A stretch of 21,566 nt of DNA from a virus, in the IMG/VR virus record IMGVR_UViG_3300009008_000285, positions 1 through 21,566 of that record. One strand, 5' to 3'. The notes beneath the pieces were generated by a model. It ran no database searches. It worked only from the letters and a program-made list of their open reading frames with translations, and was not told the origin of the DNA. Below are positions 1,490 through 9,159 of the stretch, in pieces (the first letter of the stretch is position 1; the number at the start of each line of letters is the position of its first letter). Position numbers and translations under genes: made by a program.

Positions 1490-3322
1490 CTAATCTTCTG
1501 CAAAGGTGAATCCTACTCTTCCAGATGGTTCTTTATGGCATATTCTATCATAACGTTTTAATCTGAAAGAGGGCGTCCATTCTAATTGAACAGAAAAAAG
1601 TTCACCATCTGTGTTTTTAAATAATTCTACATTCCTTTGAGTATGCTGTGCATTCCCTCCAATACCAAGAACTTTTCTACTTGCATTTTCAATTGCTCCA
1701 CTTCCTTTACCTGCATAAAGGTCTAAAACCTCGGAACGACTGTATTCGCGTGAAGTTTGTGATAATTGAATTACAATAATATCTAGCTGTACTGCAAGAG
1801 AACTCAGACTGTGTGATATATGCCTAATAGTTTCATATTCACCACGTATTTGTCGAGGTGGTTCAATGAGGTCAATATAATCCACAACCACACATTTGGG
1901 CTGAATATCCAGTACCATTTCTCTAATCTTTTGCACGGTAGGACTAACCGTTTGAACTACAATATGATTAACATTGTGTTTGTGATGAGCATACACTTCT
2001 CTAAAATGTCTATTGATATCTGTTTTAGGTAAATCAGATACTATTTGGAGATTGCGTTTATGTGTGTACCAATCAGTAAGTTCTAAACTAAGATAAAGAG
2101 TGGGTATTTGTAATTCAGGACAAATCATATCATTATATGCGTCATATCCTAAGACTATGTTCTGTGCTAAAGTGGTCTTATTGGCTCCTGTAGGCCCGAA
2201 TATGGTCATTAATTCACCTGGATATACTACAACCTCTTTATTGGTCAGTCCAAATAATTTGTCAAGGTGTATACTACGTCCTTGATAATCTGTGCTCATT
2301 CTTTCTTCAAGACTTTGTTGCATCTGGCTAGCTGTTTTAATTTCTACTAAATAATCCTTATTTTTATAGAATTTACAACGAGGGTTACAATAGTCTTTTA
2401 AAAGAAAGTCATTACATCCATATTTATAGCCACGATTATATACATCTTCTACAGCTTTAGTAATTACATTGTTATCTAAATTGTCTTCATTCCAATATAA
2501 TATACCAGCTTTAGCTATTTCTGATGGAAATCCATGCCTAGCAAAATGACTTGCAAGACGTAATACGCTATTATTTCTTGTTCCTGGAGATGGTCCATCT
2601 AGAAATATTTTCTGAATACATGGTACTAAGTCTTTTGGTTCTGTTGTGGCTTGTAGTTTTCTTATACGTGGTATTTCTTTAATCACTTTATCTTCTAATT
2701 CACCTTCACCGAATATGTCTTCATATGCATAATCTAAGCGTCTGGCTTTAGCTAATTGAAAAATTTGCTCTGTTGACAAATCAAACAATTCTTTAGCTGA
2801 TAAAGGGATTTTATAATAACCACGTTTAGTATTAAGGGAATGTTCTACTCTATAAATGCCTGTACGATTGTATATTGAACAATCTATTTCATCTAACAAT
2901 ACCTTTATAGTTTCTTTAATAATAAAAGGCATGTCTGCTGTGGGTTTAATCTGAAATACGTCTGCATGAACTACAATATGATATCCAGTCCCACTAAAAT
3001 ATATCTGAAAATTATGGTTAGCCAAACCACTTTCATACAACTCTAATACACATCCCTGTGCTCGTTGTAAAGTATAATTATCGCTGTCTGTTCCTTTGTC
3101 TATATCAATAGGAACTAAATCAATTCCCCTTATACCCATAAAATCCCTTAAAGTTCCATGAATTTTACGATATTCAAGTGCATCATCGTAATATGTATAC
3201 ACACTACGATAGACGGCTTTGTCTTTACCTTCTACAGCAATAATATCGGGTAAATTATCCAGGGGAATCAGGAGCCCCCTTTTACGAGGGCTCCCAATTG
3301 CTACTTCAACAAAAGGATTCAT
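1490..3322 (-). CDS. Primase-helicase: archaeo-eukaryotic-type primase fused to a DnaB/RecA-like helicase
   Basis: This 610-residue protein is a likely replicative primase-helicase. The N-terminal domain (about 1-205) shows archaeo-eukaryotic primase motifs: PIDID (D73, D75), FSGTGYHIVV (S110, H115) and YRVEHS (R158, H161). The middle (about 230-325) has four Cys, at 235, 303, 312 and 316, with YCNPRC near the end; this resembles the Cys-rich PriL/PriCT-like domain that can hold Fe-S or zinc. The C-terminal domain has Walker A GPTGANKTT (376-384) and Walker B CVVVDYIDLI (477-486), the latter typical of DnaB-type helicases. The ATG shares one base with the TAA of the upstream gene and has no clear ribosome site, so translation is probably coupled. 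It plays the part of T7 gp4 but uses a different primase fold. Confidence 0.9.
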   Translation of the reverse strand: MNPFVEVAIGSPRKRGLLIPLDNLPDIIAVEGKDKAVYRSVYTYYDDALEYRKIHGTLRDFMGIRGIDLVPIDIDKGTDSDNYTLQRAQGCVLELYESGLANHNFQIYFSGTGYHIVVHADVFQIKPTADMPFIIKETIKVLLDEIDCSIYNRTGIYRVEHSLNTKRGYYKIPLSAKELFDLSTEQIFQLAKARRLDYAYEDIFGEGELEDKVIKEIPRIRKLQATTEPKDLVPCIQKIFLDGPSPGTRNNSVLRLASHFARHGFPSEIAKAGILYWNEDNLDNNVITKAVEDVYNRGYKYGCNDFLLKDYCNPRCKFYKNKDYLVEIKTASQMQQSLEERMSTDYQGRSIHLDKLFGLTNKEVVVYPGELMTIFGPTGANKTTLAQNIVLGYDAYNDMICPELQIPTLYLSLELTDWYTHKRNLQIVSDLPKTDINRHFREVYAHHKHNVNHIVVQTVSPTVQKIREMVLDIQPKCVVVDYIDLIEPPRQIRGEYETIRHISHSLSSLAVQLDIIVIQLSQTSREYSRSEVLDLYAGKGSGAIENASRKVLGIGGNAQHTQRNVELFKNTDGELFSVQLEWTPSFRLKRYDRICHKEPSGRVGFTFAED

Positions 3323-3918
3323 TAAAACGTTTGTGCGCTTTGCGATGCACTGGCTTGAACGTGCACTGCTGATTCTGTTGAAGACTCGGCTTCTTTTAAA
3401 TAACCTTTACTCTTCATAAAAGTTATCCACGATTCTAAATCGTCTTTTTCTCTCTGTAAATTACGAACAATCTTAGAAGCAACACGTGTATAAGTTTTTC
3501 CATTTTTCGCATTTTCTTTATACACGTAGATATAAAATGGAGTTGCTTCACTTGTTAATGCATCTGGACTAATATGATGTGTATTGAGATAGGTAGCAAT
3601 ATCATCTATTGCAATATCATCTTCATCTACCCATTTACCATATCTATCAGGTCCAGCTTGACATTCTAATGCATCAAATAGAGAGTAAATACGTTTGAGT
3701 AAAGAACTATCTTTTATTGTACCATCGTCATTATACTCATATGATCCCTTTAATTGATATATCACAGGATATTGTGATGTAGGAATCTTAAACGTGACCT
3801 CTAATAAAACATCTGCCCAATCATAATCATCTGATCTATCTGCAATATCTATAATTTGGGCAGGTTGGAATCCCAACCAGTTTCCTGTTGTAACTTCTGC
3901 CTTTGGTCTATATGGCAT
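3322..3918 (-). CDS. Putative ssDNA-binding or recombination accessory protein
   Basis: This protein of about 198 residues was not matched to a family with certainty. It directly follows the Sak4-like ATPase with a one-base gap and precedes the primase-helicase, a slot often held by a single-strand DNA-binding protein. The N-terminal two thirds alternate short beta-like segments (VLLEVTFKIP, PVIYQLKG, PFYIYVYKE), compatible with an OB fold. The tail is Ser/Ala/Gln-rich and ends in Phe, but lacks the acidic stretch usual in bacterial SSB tails. The ATG at 3918 was chosen over longer in-frame starts because a perfect AAGGAG lies seven bases upstream. The extra 19 codons would lie inside the preceding gene. 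Confidence 0.7.
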   Translation of the reverse strand: MPYRPKAEVTTGNWLGFQPAQIIDIADRSDDYDWADVLLEVTFKIPTSQYPVIYQLKGSYEYNDDGTIKDSSLLKRIYSLFDALECQAGPDRYGKWVDEDDIAIDDIATYLNTHHISPDALTSEATPFYIYVYKENAKNGKTYTRVASKIVRNLQREKDDLESWITFMKSKGYLKEAESSTESAVHVQASASQSAQTF

Positions 3919-3919
3919 G

Positions 3920-4780
3920 TTAACTCTCCTTTTCTTTGTAGTTGGTGATTTCTTTTTTAACAACTTGATAGTCAAATAATAGTTTCTTTTGTGCTAATGG
4001 TTTAAGGCGGCTTCCTATCATCCGCTCATCATAACTAACAAAAGAAATATAATATTTACCATCTTTCTTATCTGCAGTAACATAGCCTATGACATCAGCT
4101 TTAGCTGTTACTGCTCGTGCTAATCCTCTTGGCAATTCTGGAGATAATTGTACTTTATTATCTGTAATTGCACTAGGTTTTGCATGTGCAATGAGAATTA
4201 ATTGAGCTCCTTTTTGTTTAAGGAATTCTTCATATTTTTTAATCAAATTCACATTACGTTTACGGGCTCTACCCCAATCGGCTCCCCAATCGCCTTCTCC
4301 CATACTTTTTATTTTTAGTTCTTCTACAACTTCGTATTCTATCCATTCGTTGACTTGGTCAATTGTATCAATAACTACTGTATCATATGACAAATCATCC
4401 CAATTTTCTTTGAGATAATTAAAGACTTCTATTAAGGAATAGGTTGCCATTGGCCATCCTTTTTGTGGGCCTGTACGCCAATGATAACCACGTTCTTCTG
4501 GTGGGACAGGTTCTACCTGTGGTATATTTTTAATTACAACCTGTTCACCATTTTCCATTAAAGGACGAACAGGTGTGTTCAAATGCCCAACGGATATGAT
4601 ATTAGCACCATCAACAAAATCAGCTCCATGGTCAGTGTCAATAATCAAAACACCGTCATGTCCTGATTCACTCCATTGAGATGCTTGGGTAGTTTTACCT
4701 GTTTTAGGTTGGCCTATGAACAACCAGGTTAAACCGCCTGGCATTGTAGTCCAGTCATGTTTGACTTTATGTATTAGCAA
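3920..4780 (-). CDS. Sak4-like RecA-fold ATPase (phage recombination)
   Basis: This protein of about 286 residues is a probable single-strand annealing or recombination ATPase of the Sak4 / phage nucleotide-binding (AAA_24) type. Counted from the TTG start, Walker A GQPKTGKT lies at about 23-30, an acidic LIIDTDHG strand at about 45-52, Walker B TVVIDTID at about 134-141, and LILIAHAK (sensor-like His) near 195-202. The C-terminal part, with ADVIGYV and a short beta sheet, is also typical. The start is TTG at 4780 with AAGGAG six bases before it. The 32 codons farther upstream run through a promoter and terminator and are not believed. This is the first gene of the leftward replication unit and has its own promoter. 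Confidence 0.88.
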   Translation of the reverse strand: MLIHKVKHDWTTMPGGLTWLFIGQPKTGKTTQASQWSESGHDGVLIIDTDHGADFVDGANIISVGHLNTPVRPLMENGEQVVIKNIPQVEPVPPEERGYHWRTGPQKGWPMATYSLIEVFNYLKENWDDLSYDTVVIDTIDQVNEWIEYEVVEELKIKSMGEGDWGADWGRARKRNVNLIKKYEEFLKQKGAQLILIAHAKPSAITDNKVQLSPELPRGLARAVTAKADVIGYVTADKKDGKYYISFVSYDERMIGSRLKPLAQKKLLFDYQVVKKEITNYKEKES

Positions 4781-4818
4781 GTCCCTCTCCTTTCTTATTA
4801 TTCTGTAATTGCTATTAG

Positions 4819-4848
4819 AATATAATATATTAAATATACACAATGCAA
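4819..4848 (-). promoter_or_regulatory. Probable sigma70-type promoter for the replication operon
   Basis: On the minus strand TTGCAT (4843-4848) and TATATT (4819-4824) are separated by 18 bases, in very AT-rich DNA. They lie just after a terminator and about 40 bases before the TTG start of the Sak4-like gene. The -10 matches five of six consensus bases, the -35 only three. The -35 lies in an 11-base motif, GACTTGCATTG, preceded by an A-run; the same motif occurs in the rightward promoter near 11752. This suggests a phage-specific promoter signature. Confidence 0.5.
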
Positions 4849-4851
4849 GTC

Positions 4852-4898
4852 TTTTTTTGAAAAAGAATTTGGGCAAGCAAAATAATTACCTGCCCAAA
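4852..4898 (-). terminator. Rho-independent terminator ending the ubiquitin-like cassette
   Basis: Three bases after the stop of the E1-like gene, the minus strand forms a 10-bp stem (arms at 4889-4898 and 4868-4877, one G-U pair) with an 11-base loop. It is followed directly by TTCTTTTTC. It cleanly separates the cassette from the replication operon downstream. Confidence 0.8.
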
Positions 4899-4901
4899 CC
4901 T

Positions 4902-5549
4902 TTATTGTACTTGTAATAACATTGCTGGAAAGTTGAAAACTGTATTATGATGTACAGGTCTATTACTTAAGACTCGTCCAACAGTTTCCGTAATAAAGCT
5001 ACCTGCCATGTTGGAACAATAGCTAGTGGCTTTAGCTGTACAAGGCTCAGTTGAGCCCAATCTGTCTGGAAACCATACATCTTCATAAGCTTTGAGAGTA
5101 ATTTTAGGAAATACGTATTGTATGTAAGTTTCACTTCCCATTCTGCCATCTATTACTAATGTTGGAAGTGGTTTTCTTTTTAGTATTTCTTTAATTACCT
5201 CTAGTCGTCCGACCATATTATCAAAACCAAGAATTACAATATCTTTCCCTTGTGGAGTATATGTTGTAAATTTACCTGGATACAAATTAATATTTGGACG
5301 TATACATATGTCATTGAGTATCTGTTCGAGTGCTTCTACTTTCATCATCCCAATATGCTGAAGGTTATATTGGCTTACACCAACATTTTCTTCTCCTACT
5401 TCATCCATATCATAGAGAACAAATTGTTCTGCTCCTGTTCGAGCAATCTGTAAAGCTGCAGAGCTTCCAATAGCTCCGCAACCTATAATATGAAATGTAT
5501 AACTATTTATATTAGGAATAATGTCTTTAAAGCGAATTGTCCTACTCAT
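4902..5549 (-). CDS. E1-like / ThiF-fold adenylating enzyme
   Basis: This 215-residue protein has the minimal Rossmann-type adenylation fold of ThiF/MoeB/E1 enzymes, which use ATP to adenylate the C-terminus of a ubiquitin-like protein. Visible motifs are GCGAIG (23-28), LYDMDEV with D47 and D49, N55, Q60, K70 in HIGMMKVEAL, and GFDNMVGR with D110 and R115. The usual RQ after the Asn is replaced by SQ, with one extra residue. C170 in STEPCTAKATSYC is the best candidate for the thioester Cys, with C178 nearby. There is no CxxC zinc pair and no C-terminal ubiquitin-fold domain, so it is shorter than MoeB (about 250). The ATG shares one base with the TAA of the JAB gene. It is the last gene of the Ubl-E2-like-JAB-E1 cassette. 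Confidence 0.9.
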   Translation of the reverse strand: MSRTIRFKDIIPNINSYTFHIIGCGAIGSSAALQIARTGAEQFVLYDMDEVGEENVGVSQYNLQHIGMMKVEALEQILNDICIRPNINLYPGKFTTYTPQGKDIVILGFDNMVGRLEVIKEILKRKPLPTLVIDGRMGSETYIQYVFPKITLKAYEDVWFPDRLGSTEPCTAKATSYCSNMAGSFITETVGRVLSNRPVHHNTVFNFPAMLLQVQ

Positions 5550-6400
5550 TATGTTGTAGCACTGAATCTTGATTTAATCATACGAGTTTCAGCCATAATT
5601 TTAGGATCATCTATCATTTTGATTAATTCTTGTTCAGTCTTTGGCAGTTGAATTTTGCAATGGAACAATTTTTTGTTATAACGATATATTTTCTGTTGAT
5701 ATTCATGCCAAGATAAAGCCTTTTGGTCTTTGTCTTTTTTGCCAATATGAAAATTATCATTAAGTTTCATTAGCCAATCATTTGCATCCCAATATTCATC
5801 TATATCATCAATTGCATTATAAGCTCTTGGATGTAAACTCTGTTGCTGTCCATAAGGGTGTTTTCCCCAATACGTATGTGTATGAGTATATGTTGTCTTT
5901 TTGCATTTAGCTTCGACTTCTTCATAGATACTTTTTGGAATTTTCTTTGTAGGCTCTAGGATATGCAATTCAATATCTTTATCCATTGGCAATGGGTCAA
6001 AGACATTAATTCTGAATTTATATTCATTTTTGCAATTGACTACTAGATTTGCAGCCCAACCTTTGCTGGCCTGTGCTGCCATATTCGTTGTATCTGTTGC
6101 AGACCAAAATACGCCCATATTTGCATGGCTATGCCACCATACAAACTTTACATTAGGTCTTTTTTTACCAATTTTAGCCATAGTAGCAGCAAAATATTTA
6201 GCACTTTCTTCTGCTTCAATTTCACATGTACTGCCTGTAACTTCTTGTGGTAAAATAACAGGACTATGCAAAACATAATCTCCGTCTTGATCTTGTTCCA
6301 TGAGCAAATATCCAGTAATTTCACTGGATAGTTTTTCATATGCAGCCTTAGCATAATCTAAGACTTTATTCCATGCTTTTTTGTCAATATAAAAAGCCAT
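5549..6400 (-). CDS. JAB/JAMM metallopeptidase (deubiquitinase-like)
   Basis: This 283-residue protein is a predicted zinc isopeptidase of the JAB/MPN+ family, which cleaves after the terminal Gly of ubiquitin-like proteins. The JAMM site is complete: E27 (SSEITGYLL), H90 and H92, then seven residues, S100 and D103 (HSHANMGVFWSATD). The catalytic domain covers about residues 1-150. The remaining 130 residues form an extension not typical of the minimal domain, with a His/Thr/Tyr-rich stretch near 165-180 and a Lys-rich, helical C-terminus. The ATG has an AAGGAGG site six bases upstream. Likely roles are maturation of the Gly-Gly-Lys tail of the small protein at 7947-8150 and removal of conjugates. 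A Mec+-type role in amino-acid biosynthesis is less likely because no sulfur-transfer genes are nearby. Confidence 0.92.
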   Translation of the reverse strand: MAFYIDKKAWNKVLDYAKAAYEKLSSEITGYLLMEQDQDGDYVLHSPVILPQEVTGSTCEIEAEESAKYFAATMAKIGKKRPNVKFVWWHSHANMGVFWSATDTTNMAAQASKGWAANLVVNCKNEYKFRINVFDPLPMDKDIELHILEPTKKIPKSIYEEVEAKCKKTTYTHTHTYWGKHPYGQQQSLHPRAYNAIDDIDEYWDANDWLMKLNDNFHIGKKDKDQKALSWHEYQQKIYRYNKKLFHCKIQLPKTEQELIKMIDDPKIMAETRMIKSRFSATT

Positions 6401-6413
6401 TATTTCCTCCTTA

Positions 6414-7880
6414 TTAGTTTAATGATTGAGCTTCTGCCCAAGTGGCCATACTTCTTCTAACTGCATCTCTTTCTTCGTCAGTTGTTGGGACTGGTATTTC
6501 TACAGAACCTTCTGCAACAGGGTCTATAGGCGATGTTGTAGGAGACAAGTCTGGTATATCGTCTGTTACAACCTCACAAGCATCTGTATCTTCAGATGGT
6601 TGGTCAGAAGTTATTTTTGTTAAAACCTCTTTTTTACTTCGATCGTCAAATTTACAGTTCCAATTATAGTCATATTTCTCATTAATCGCCATGCGTAAAT
6701 CCTTACATTCTGTACATTTGTCCAATATTTCTTTATTAGGATTACCATTGTCAATTAATTTATTATAACATGCAGTCGCATGTGATCTATCAAAATAAAT
6801 TGCATTAATTTGCGCTTTATTTAACTTGTGTTTATTCTCATTTGGATCAAGTCTGCTGTCATTAACATTGTTAAAAACACCATTAAAATGATTAATACGT
6901 TTGTGTAAAGGGCTAGTAATCCCCATGCGATATGTATTTAACCATTGACGTAATTTTGCAACAAAGCTAATGAATGATAGGCCATTATAGAGACTGCTCA
7001 AAAGGCTGAAACTACCCTCACAATAGTTGGACCAACTATTAAACAACCGATGTATAGTGATGTCTGGCCAATTACTATACATTGCCCCACTGTTTAAAAA
7101 TGGATGTCTTACATCTGTTTCATAAGCATAGCCATACATTTCTAGTCTAAATTGCCGATCTGATCGCTGTCCAAGTATCTTTTGTAATAACATCATTTTT
7201 TGACCATTAAGTACCCAATAGGCCCAGCCGAAGTCAAAAGATTCGATTGCTACTTCATCATATCTCATAAAATATTCCAAGTGAATAGGTACACATCCTA
7301 TAATATCAAGGTCTACTTTATTTTGTATTGTGCAGAAGTAAATATTCTGTAAATCTGGAGTGGAATTTTTCAACAAATCTCTAAACCATTCTTTTTCTTC
7401 TTTTTTGTTTAAGAAATGTTTGTGTATTAATTGATATTCCATGTCGTTAAGGCGCATACATTCTTCTTGAAATACACTATTTAAACGAGCTACTTCAACT
7501 TCAACTTCTGTTTCTTTATCAGGCAATGTTAGGCCTTTTCTTCGACATTGCATGAGATATGCATCTGCATCTCTACAGGCTTTATAATAGTTGGTGATTT
7601 GAGAACTATAATGTTGATCAGCCACACTATTTATAAGGTCTGTTACTGAACGATAAGATTCTTTACTGGTTGTTACAATAGTATCAGTTGCTGATTTGAT
7701 CAGGGGATATGATCCTCTAGCCCAAGTATAGGTATTTGTTACTCCAGGTTTATCAACACCTTTTGGATGATATTGATATATTTTATCCAAATACTGTTGT
7801 AATTCAGCACGTGGGCCAAATGGAATAGATTGTGCAAATTCCAAACTATCTTCATGTAATTGTGTAAAAAGTTGTTCCAT
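6414..7880 (-). CDS. 488-aa protein of the ubiquitin-like cassette with an E2-like signature
   Basis: This 488-residue protein lies between the ubiquitin-like gene and the JAB gene, where an E2 would be expected. Residues about 245-315 read RLEMYGYAYETDVRHPFL, then NSGAMYSNW, then a helical stretch with LFNSW and LLSSLYNGLSF. This resembles the E2/RWD core, in which HPN...G...C is followed by a Trp and helices. H259, P260, G265, N270 and W271 fit, but the position of the catalytic Cys is held by Met-Tyr-Ser (267-269). C287 is the nearest Cys. The first 240 residues are mostly helical and charged. C389, C392 and C409 could bind metal. Residues about 425-470 are an acidic, Pro/Ser/Thr-rich linker. 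The ATG has AAGGA nine bases upstream. The E2-like call is an inference from weak motifs and context; the reading frame itself is secure. Confidence 0.6.
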   Translation of the reverse strand: MEQLFTQLHEDSLEFAQSIPFGPRAELQQYLDKIYQYHPKGVDKPGVTNTYTWARGSYPLIKSATDTIVTTSKESYRSVTDLINSVADQHYSSQITNYYKACRDADAYLMQCRRKGLTLPDKETEVEVEVARLNSVFQEECMRLNDMEYQLIHKHFLNKKEEKEWFRDLLKNSTPDLQNIYFCTIQNKVDLDIIGCVPIHLEYFMRYDEVAIESFDFGWAYWVLNGQKMMLLQKILGQRSDRQFRLEMYGYAYETDVRHPFLNSGAMYSNWPDITIHRLFNSWSNYCEGSFSLLSSLYNGLSFISFVAKLRQWLNTYRMGITSPLHKRINHFNGVFNNVNDSRLDPNENKHKLNKAQINAIYFDRSHATACYNKLIDNGNPNKEILDKCTECKDLRMAINEKYDYNWNCKFDDRSKKEVLTKITSDQPSEDTDACEVVTDDIPDLSPTTSPIDPVAEGSVEIPVPTTDEERDAVRRSMATWAEAQSLN

Positions 7881-7900
7881 AATATTATTCCTTATGGTTG

Positions 7901-7932
7901 AGTAGGGGGAAAGAATAATCCCTCCCCCTACT
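7901..7932 (-). promoter_or_regulatory. Perfect 10-bp hairpin between the Ubl gene and the E2-like gene
   Basis: AGTAGGGGGA at 7901-7910 pairs exactly with TCCCCCTACT at 7923-7932 around a 12-base loop. It fills the only sizeable gap inside the cassette. No U-run follows on the minus strand, so it is not a standard terminator. It may be a weak attenuator, or a 3' end stabiliser or processing site that raises the level of the ubiquitin-like protein over the enzymes. Confidence 0.6.
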
Positions 7933-7946
7933 ATATGGTTTATGGA

Positions 7947-8150
7947 TTATTTGCCACCTTTTTCATTTGTTTTCACTGCAGCAATAAACGATCCATCTGT
8001 TAATTGTGCATCATCTGCTGCACTCACACCGTTTACGTTAATTTTCACATTACTCCATCCAAGCTCTTCTTTTAGAGCTCCAACAGTAGTTGCTGTGACT
8101 GTTCGTTGTGTAAAATCACGTGATTCATACATTATATTAAGTTGAGGCAT
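7947..8150 (-). CDS. Ubiquitin-like (beta-grasp) protein with a Gly-Gly-Lys C-terminus
   Basis: This 67-residue protein looks like a small beta-grasp protein of the ThiS / PRTRC-C / ubiquitin-like class. The order is two N-terminal strands (LNIMYES and FTQRTVTA), a helix (VGALKEELG), a strand with a Gly turn (VKINVNGV), then a ThiS-like LTDGSFIAAVK strand and the tail NEKGGK. In this class the exposed diglycine is adenylated by an E1. Here one Lys follows the Gly pair, so removal of Lys67 would be needed, and the JAB peptidase two genes downstream could do it. The start has a strong AAGGAGG site. It is the first gene of the cassette, as expected for the protein needed in the largest amount. 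Identification rests on size, motif order and neighbours. Confidence 0.82.
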   Translation of the reverse strand: MPQLNIMYESRDFTQRTVTATTVGALKEELGWSNVKINVNGVSAADDAQLTDGSFIAAVKTNEKGGK

Positions 8151-8278: not shown

Positions 8279-8569
8279 TTAATTTGTTTTGAAATCAAAG
8301 ACATGATATTTTTGCATTTTGAGTAAAGGCAATTCAATATCCATGATAAAGTCTTGCCATCTATTATCGAGCTGTTCCCAATAGTCATATCCTTCGGATG
8401 TGTGACCCCATCTAAAGGCATGATCAATCATACTTTCTTGATCTTCACGGCTATCACATTGTTGTATATAATATTCATCTATACAAGAGATATTTTGATC
8501 TATCTGTATATTGTTGCAAAAATAAAAGTATGCATCATGTTTTTTTAAGAATTGTGTTAATAAGTTCAT
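8279..8569 (-). CDS. Small phage protein of the tandem W-T-EG family, copy 3
   Basis: This 96-residue protein of unknown function is the third gene of a tandem paralog set. It shares with its two neighbours the block IDHAFRWGHTSEGYDYWEQL, followed by a Trp (NRW) and a final VFDF near the C-terminus. The N-terminal LLTQFLKKHD helix also matches the first copy (LISFLKNHG). Motifs of the form W-x2-T-x-EG-x2-[FY]W recur in small phage proteins of unknown role. The ribosome site is weak (GAAAG), so it may depend on coupling with the preceding gene 12 bases upstream. Confidence 0.75.
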   Translation of the reverse strand: MNLLTQFLKKHDAYFYFCNNIQIDQNISCIDEYYIQQCDSREDQESMIDHAFRWGHTSEGYDYWEQLDNRWQDFIMDIELPLLKMQKYHVFDFKTN

Positions 8570-8581
8570 TTTTCGATTCTT

Positions 8582-8878
8582 TCAGAAAACAAAAGCATAT
8601 CGTTTAATATCAGAAAAGGGAAATGTGTTATTTTCACAACATTTTACCCATTCTTTATGTATCTCATACCAATATTCGTCTTTTTCTGGTGTACAATACC
8701 AGAAAAATGATTGGTCTATCCATTGAGAAGTCTTTCCCCAATGTGCAGGATCAGACCAAAATAATGGGGATTTTGGCCTGTTCTTTTCAGTATGTTTTTG
8801 ATTGTTTTTAGTAAACTCTTCTTCGATATTGTGATATCTTAAAAAAGCTTCAAACTTTTGAATCATGTTTTCTTTCAT
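8582..8878 (-). CDS. Small phage protein of the tandem W-T-EG family, copy 2
   Basis: This 98-residue protein is the most divergent of the three paralogs. It keeps IDQSFFWYCTPEKDEYWYEI, a Trp nine residues later region (KEW) and a final YAFVF, but the EG of the motif is EK here. An insertion rich in Lys, Pro and Trp (about residues 25-55) is absent from the other copies. The ATG overlaps the stop of copy 1 by four bases (ATGA), with GGAG nine bases upstream. Function unknown; the three copies are probably translated from one message. Confidence 0.75.
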   Translation of the reverse strand: MKENMIQKFEAFLRYHNIEEEFTKNNQKHTEKNRPKSPLFWSDPAHWGKTSQWIDQSFFWYCTPEKDEYWYEIHKEWVKCCENNTFPFSDIKRYAFVF

Positions 8879-9159
8879 AATGTTATCTCCGTTCCAAAAT
8901 CAAATGCACGAGGTCTTGTAGTATTATAATTACCTAGCTTTAACTCTTCTTGCCATTTGTGTGAGATATCAAACCAAAAAGAACCACCTTCATTTGTGTG
9001 GTCCCACTCCAAAGCATGGTCAATAGCCTTAGGAGAAACCTCCATGCGGACACTATAATCTGCAAAATTTGATGCTACACCTTGAAAGGCTGGATCAAAT
9101 TGTTCTTCTAAACGATTTAGTACACCGTGGTTTTTAAGAAAAGATATTAGGTTGTTCAT
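8875..9159 (-). CDS. Small phage protein of the tandem W-T-EG family, copy 1
   Basis: This 94-residue protein is the first of the tandem set. It has the clearest motif, IDHALEWDHTNEGGSFWFDI, then HKW and a closing AFDF. The fold is unknown; the sequence is soluble and acidic with no membrane segment. The ATG has AAGGAG eight bases upstream, the best start of the three, so this gene probably carries the main entry site. A 142-base leader rich in inverted repeats precedes it. Confidence 0.78.
   Translation of the reverse strand: MNNLISFLKNHGVLNRLEEQFDPAFQGVASNFADYSVRMEVSPKAIDHALEWDHTNEGGSFWFDISHKWQEELKLGNYNTTRPRAFDFGTEITL

Follow-up and report, generated by a model that had tools for sequence, protein, structure and literature searches.

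In the IMG/VR virus record IMGVR_UViG_3300009008_000285, which comes from a virus of bacteria, we analysed a stretch of 21,566 bases (hereafter the window) and found a cassette of four minus-strand genes that very probably encodes a self-contained, reversible system for conjugation of a ubiquitin-like protein (Ubl). A preliminary description, made from the sequence alone, had proposed four leftward genes in a row, and all four open reading frames (ORFs) are there: in transcription order, the Ubl gene (7947-8150, 67 aa), a gene for a 488-aa E2-like protein (6414-7880), a gene for a predicted JAB/JAMM isopeptidase (5549-6400, 283 aa) and a gene for a predicted E1-like Ubl-activating enzyme (4902-5549, 215 aa). 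A single base is shared by the JAB stop and the E1 start. The operon is closed, as had been described, by an intrinsic terminator on the same strand (4866-4900), with a 15-bp stem and a T-tract directly 3′ of the E1 gene. The cassette forms one leftward unit situated between structural genes of the plus strand (P22-type portal, SU10-type capsid protein and terminase) and replication genes of the minus strand.

The Ubl gene has an ATG preceded by a ribosome-binding site (aaggagg), and an ORF of equal length runs antisense to it. We take the Ubl gene to be real despite the antisense ORF, because the minus-strand protein is present in 54 loci and G65 and G66 (positions 7953-7958) are invariant in 37 aligned homologues; the same conservation rules out a chance ORF. 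In the window the protein ends with ..EKGGK, a single Lys following the two glycines. Its relatives end with K-x-G-G, many stopping exactly at GG and others carrying a short tail, while the Ubls of a sister phage group terminate with KVxSG. The beta-grasp-like character suggested earlier is borne out by the AlphaFold prediction (pLDDT 89); a Foldseek search of PDB with this model gave Mth1743 as the top match (TM 0.76), then Caldiarchaeum ubiquitin, SUMO, NEDD8 and ThiS, with MoaD also matched. In some contigs the Ubl is fused via KTGG to a DUF7303-like domain (L024:4713-5336, L034:2686-3300 and L039:2288-2878), and in others this domain is encoded by a separate gene near the cassette (e.g. 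L070:101-391 and L142:1222-1557); placed after GG, it could represent a tail meant to be cut off, or a substrate that comes attached to the Ubl.

The JAB protein scored 24.6 bits against PF01398 (cut-off 22.5), and its profile had the best match to the archaeal Rpn11 of Caldiarchaeum (E-value 1e-4). The JAMM pattern E ... HxHx7Sx2D, previously noted as intact, is indeed complete, with E27, H90, H92, S100 and D103 invariant in 39/39 homologues. In a subset of the sister group a conserved gene for a protein of 145-147 aa (MMTVPQKKYFC..) stands between JAB and E1 (L128:4390-4833, L144:3717-4154, L160:4408-4845 and L173:4416-4853).

Assignment of the 215-aa protein to E1 enzymes of the ThiF fold agrees with its score of 61 bits against PF00899 (cut-off 28). 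The ATP-site residues are kept (GxGxxG at 23-28, D47, N55, K70 and D110, with R115 further on), and Cys170 (5040-5042) shares its column with the Cys of ThiF, MoeB and the plasmid PRTRC enzymes in all 43 aligned E1s; it is predicted to be the catalytic Cys for thioester formation. D134 is common to phage and PRTRC E1s and is not kept in E. coli ThiF and MoeB. A tree of the E1s unites the phage proteins, with moderate support (82/38), and separates them from the PRTRC enzymes and E. coli ThiF/MoeB. Among the NCBIfam models ThiF scored best, 64 bits, which is below its cut-off of 159. The phmmer matches of the E1 to PPR proteins were discarded, as they contained no passing stretch.

The 488-aa protein had been labelled E2-like without a stated basis. 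Its 44 syntenic homologues have few residues in common; still, C287 (7020-7022) and P324 are invariant in 44/44, P260 is found in 43/44, and W313, N326 and C409 are nearly invariant. Cys287 is preceded in the window's family by a [HFY]P[YF] segment (H259-P260-F261-L262 in the window itself). In the sister phage group, the protein encoded directly upstream of JAB carries HPH[IV]..C.G in 31/34 cases, and in an alignment of this HPH family 21/21 sequences keep all five motif residues (H, P, H, C, G). The profile of the window's 488-aa family matches the HPH family with E-value 4e-5, Cys aligned on Cys; the HPH family, in turn, has a short profile match over the active site to two E2 sequences, UBE2D2 and UBC9 (E-value 0.023 versus 0.75 for the reversed decoy). 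For comparison, PRTRC_B, a known E2-like family, matched the same UBE2D2/UBC9 sequences with E-value 3e-4. Given the HP motif with its Cys, the chain of profile matches through the HPH family and the synteny, our preferred reading of the 488-aa protein is that of a divergent E2, the basis being motif, homology and gene order rather than fold.

Several observations speak against this assignment. The 488-aa protein has no relative by sequence in Pfam, PHROG or PDB; the window's group has His, Phe or Tyr at the position of the motif His; and a direct profile match of the 488-aa family to PRTRC_B was not significant (E-value 0.075-0.15). AlphaFold gave a weak model (pLDDT 66.5), a Foldseek search of PDB with it produced noise and no E2 match, and the HPH family had no match when its profile was run against PDB. 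A search of BFVD led to six unnamed viral homologues. The C-terminal part has a conserved set of Cys residues (C371, C389 and C409, the last conserved position being Ser415 in the window), which suggests a metal site and, possibly, a ligase-like domain following the E2-like core. The region at the N-terminus is helical; the idea that it represents a fused PRTRC protein F was not supported, since the 488-aa family had no profile match to protein F.

To assess conservation of the cassette we used an E1 alignment, which was required as a single-sequence scan with the E1 found nothing. The search of IMG/VR gave 298 viral contigs with E1 relatives, and the best 80 loci were examined. At least 3.8 kb of upstream sequence was available in 44 of these best 80, and 43 of the 44 carry the complete set, with the genes for the Ubl, the 488-aa homologue and JAB arranged as in the window on a single strand; the remaining locus has Ubl and JAB. 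Because nearly all E1-selected loci with sufficient flank hold the cassette whole, its occurrence is far beyond chance. The preliminary description had made its proposal depend on a beta-grasp fold and on a conserved association of E1 and JAB with the Ubl gene; the fold is predicted and the association is conserved. As an independent query that avoids selecting for the cassette itself, we used the adjoining primase-helicase: the E1 was present in 36/36 of the contigs selected in this way that have >4.2 kb upstream and, where further upstream room was available, JAB was present in 22/22. The Ubl was found in the same 22/22 contigs, 12 by profile and 10 by eye (from the ending KVxSG), with tails SG or GG. 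Since all 36 contigs have the E1, the cassette belongs to the core of these phages, within their early/replication genes, and is not accessory.

The locus counts include near-duplicate contigs, a point that should be set against the figures above. A second contig, L086, encodes an identical Ubl and part of the 488-aa protein, with 100% identity over that part. Scanning bacterial and archaeal species genomes with two short patterns revealed no prophage or host copy, with a single distant archaeal ThiF-like match, though such a scan is not a proof of absence. No match was found in tblastn searches of the Ubl, 488-aa and JAB proteins against phages.

The same gene order was observed in the gut crAss-like phages crAss001, cr85_1 and cr126_1 (Steigviridae) and in Flavobacterium phage FpV4. 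In crAss001 the genes gp79-gp76, annotated as hypothetical, hypothetical, metalloprotease and ThiF, resemble the window in order (Ubl-domain, E2-like, JAB, E1) and in standing beside a primase, and differ in the long tail of the Ubl. The Ubl protein of the four phages has an N-terminal Ubl-like domain ending with KSG[AG], followed by a tail, of >100 residues in the crAss proteins. The crAss E2-like protein carries YMHSH..PC.G. Profile matches to the crAss/FpV4 proteins were modest for the Ubl (E-value 0.001) and clear for JAB (1e-10) and E1 (3e-32), the E1 identity between the window and crAss-like phages being 28-31%. The crAss and FpV4 cassettes adjoin primase and uracil-DNA glycosylase (UDG) genes, with an exonuclease also nearby in crAss. 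A search of plasmids with the crAss E1 gave no match.

The preliminary description had pointed to PRTRC and Bil as relatives. PRTRC, the plasmid cassette assigned to operon class 6d by Iyer, Burroughs and Aravind 2006 (PMC1779556), is the closest in organization, Bil less so. The PRTRC order ParB-E-C(Ubl)-F-B(E2)-A(JAB)-ThiF parallels, from C onward, the phage order Ubl-488aa-JAB-E1 if the 488-aa protein is read as E2, and the phage E1 and JAB profiles match their PRTRC counterparts with E-values 1e-12 and 2e-4. There are also clear differences: ParB and protein E were not recognised in the window nor, by annotation, beside the cassettes of crAss001, cr85_1, cr126_1 and FpV4; the phage Ubl has no detectable profile homology to that of PRTRC and ends with [GS]G instead of KG; the E2-like part lies within one long protein; and the E1 trees are separate. 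The NCBIfam PRTRC models were not passed (21.9 bits for the E1 versus a cut-off of 144.75), the other window proteins having no match to them. The phage cassette resembles PRTRC in its working, yet we do not file it as PRTRC because of the failed model cut-offs and the lack of ParB. No PRTRC is annotated in B. thetaiotaomicron p5482. In plasmids of Pseudomonas nitroreducens, P. fulva and Alteromonas, PRTRC occurs without JAB (protein A) between B and ThiF (L090:11219-14350, L100:1230-4454 and L097:1217-4393).

Bil (BilABCD) combines the same four activities, Ubl, E2, JAB and E1, but is a host anti-phage defence, whereas the phage cassette belongs to the viral core. Among the PADLOC matches listed for the window proteins there was no BilA-D; the crAss001 E1 matches BilD weakly (2.5e-5). 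The phage tail proteins TAPI/TAPK (Ubl plus JAB-NlpC) are similar in that Ubl and JAB are phage-encoded, but they belong to tail-assembly genes with no E1 or E2 nearby (PMC1779556), while the window cassette is located in the replication module. In the open-access literature we found no account of a Ubl cascade in crAss or other phages, subscription papers and preprints being outside the search.

The sequences themselves provide the four genes and the catalytic residues of the products, a Ubl fold by prediction, the Gly tail, the operon order and the deep conservation, and from these we infer the following route. JAB would cut the residue after GG off the Ubl; the E1 would use ATP to adenylate the C-terminal Gly and then bind the Ubl through a thioester at Cys170; from there the Ubl would be handed to Cys287 of the E2-like protein and thence to lysines of target proteins. 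JAB may subsequently take the Ubl off the targets again, making the modification reversible. The cassette presumably acts early in infection and, as it belongs to the core early/replication module, the most likely targets would be phage proteins of replication or recombination, or host proteins encountered at that early stage.

Which of the two it would be is a matter of lesser confidence. The possibility that we rate highest, without calling it probable, is that the chemistry is aimed at the virus itself, the Ubl regulating replication or recombination proteins as SUMO and ubiquitin do at eukaryotic forks; the cassette adjoins primase-helicase and Sak4 genes (in crAss phages primase, UDG and exonuclease genes), and PRTRC likewise accompanies plasmid ParB, though adjacency shows shared expression only. 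A less likely use of the same chemistry is counter-defence, in which the cassette would tag host immune proteins or strip tags from them (Bil, CBASS-Cap2 or Bub substrates). Its location in the early module fits such a role, and bacterial hosts do defend themselves with related Ubl chemistry (PMC10097602; Bil as reviewed in PMC11354881). On the other hand, an eraser would need less than a full conjugation cascade. Counter-defence genes are, moreover, usually patchy in distribution, whereas the E1 is present in 36/36 relatives. Core status favours a viral housekeeping role over an optional counter-defence and, for the same reason, a decoy against host conjugation by Bil, raised in the preliminary description, is less likely as the main role.

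It is improbable that the system has no true E2. In that case the E1 would give the Ubl straight to substrates, in the way proposed for Urm1 and SAMPs, and the role of the 488-aa protein would be that of a substrate adaptor or ligase whose Cys is structural or metal-binding. The absence of an E2 fold in the Foldseek and Pfam results and the metal-site-like C-terminal Cys set would agree with such an arrangement, but the sister group has HPH[IV]..C.G at the homologous position and PRTRC has an E2 at the same place. Very improbable indeed is a sulfur carrier of the ThiS, MoaD or CysO/Mec+ type, with the Ubl turned into a thiocarboxylate and JAB freeing the product: ThiF is the best NCBIfam model for the E1 and the Ubl fold resembles ThiS and MoaD, but no linked sulfur-transfer or thiazole genes (rhodanese, ThiG, CysM or MoaE-like) were identified in the window, in line with the preliminary description, between Ubl and JAB there is a further gene, whose product has an invariant Cys and an E2-like motif, and the phage E1s group apart from E. 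coli ThiF/MoeB.

Returning to reversible conjugation by the phage cassette, one could speculate, quite tentatively, that several large phage groups (the P22-portal phages to which the window belongs, the sister group, crAss-like phages and Flavobacterium phages) have the Ubl cascade as an ancestral core function, with an E2 that has its own Cys-rich ligase-like domain, and that the cascade regulates the viral replisome as a viral counterpart of replication control by SUMO and ubiquitin. Thus far, bacterial Ubl conjugation is known from host defence and from a plasmid cassette with no assigned role, and for phages the open-access literature searched describes Ubl/JAB tail proteins alone. If our reading is true, bacterial viruses run protein-tagging systems of their own, the cascade being core in a large uncultured group and present in cultured crAss-like phages. 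The proposal can be tested directly, for crAss001 can be grown in culture, and the window tail ..EKGG would give, after trypsin, the K-GG mark detected by standard ubiquitin proteomics. The phage cassette also offers a handle on PRTRC, which shares its layout.

As to the neighbouring genes, the minus strand of the window encodes, besides the cassette, a Sak4-like protein, a primase-helicase, Gp157 and an endonuclease, so that the cassette does lie beside replication genes of a phage, as had been described. The genes for the Sak4-like annealing protein, a 217-aa protein and the primase-helicase occupy 1490-4876 and stand downstream of E1 across relatives; the Sak4-like ORF is 3920-4876, with the true start probably at about 4780. 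Gp157 is common to the window and to Planktothrix agardhii plasmid p1 (L098), where a siphovirus Gp157 gene adjoins a PRTRC-like cassette (a Ubl-sized ORF ending with SKG, a PRTRC_B-like gene and ThiF).

Between the Ubl and E2-like genes we observed a 14-bp RNA hairpin without a T-tract (7901-7932, minus strand; z = -4.1). Homologous spacers had z < -2 in 18/25 cases, as compared with 6/44 control segments inside E1; the hairpin could be a processing or partial-termination element that keeps the Ubl in excess. Upstream of the Ubl gene, at 8279-9159 on the minus strand, there are three tandem genes of 94-98 aa that resemble diverged paralogues, the first matching the third in BLASTP with E-value 1e-11 and the remaining pairs with about 1e-3.

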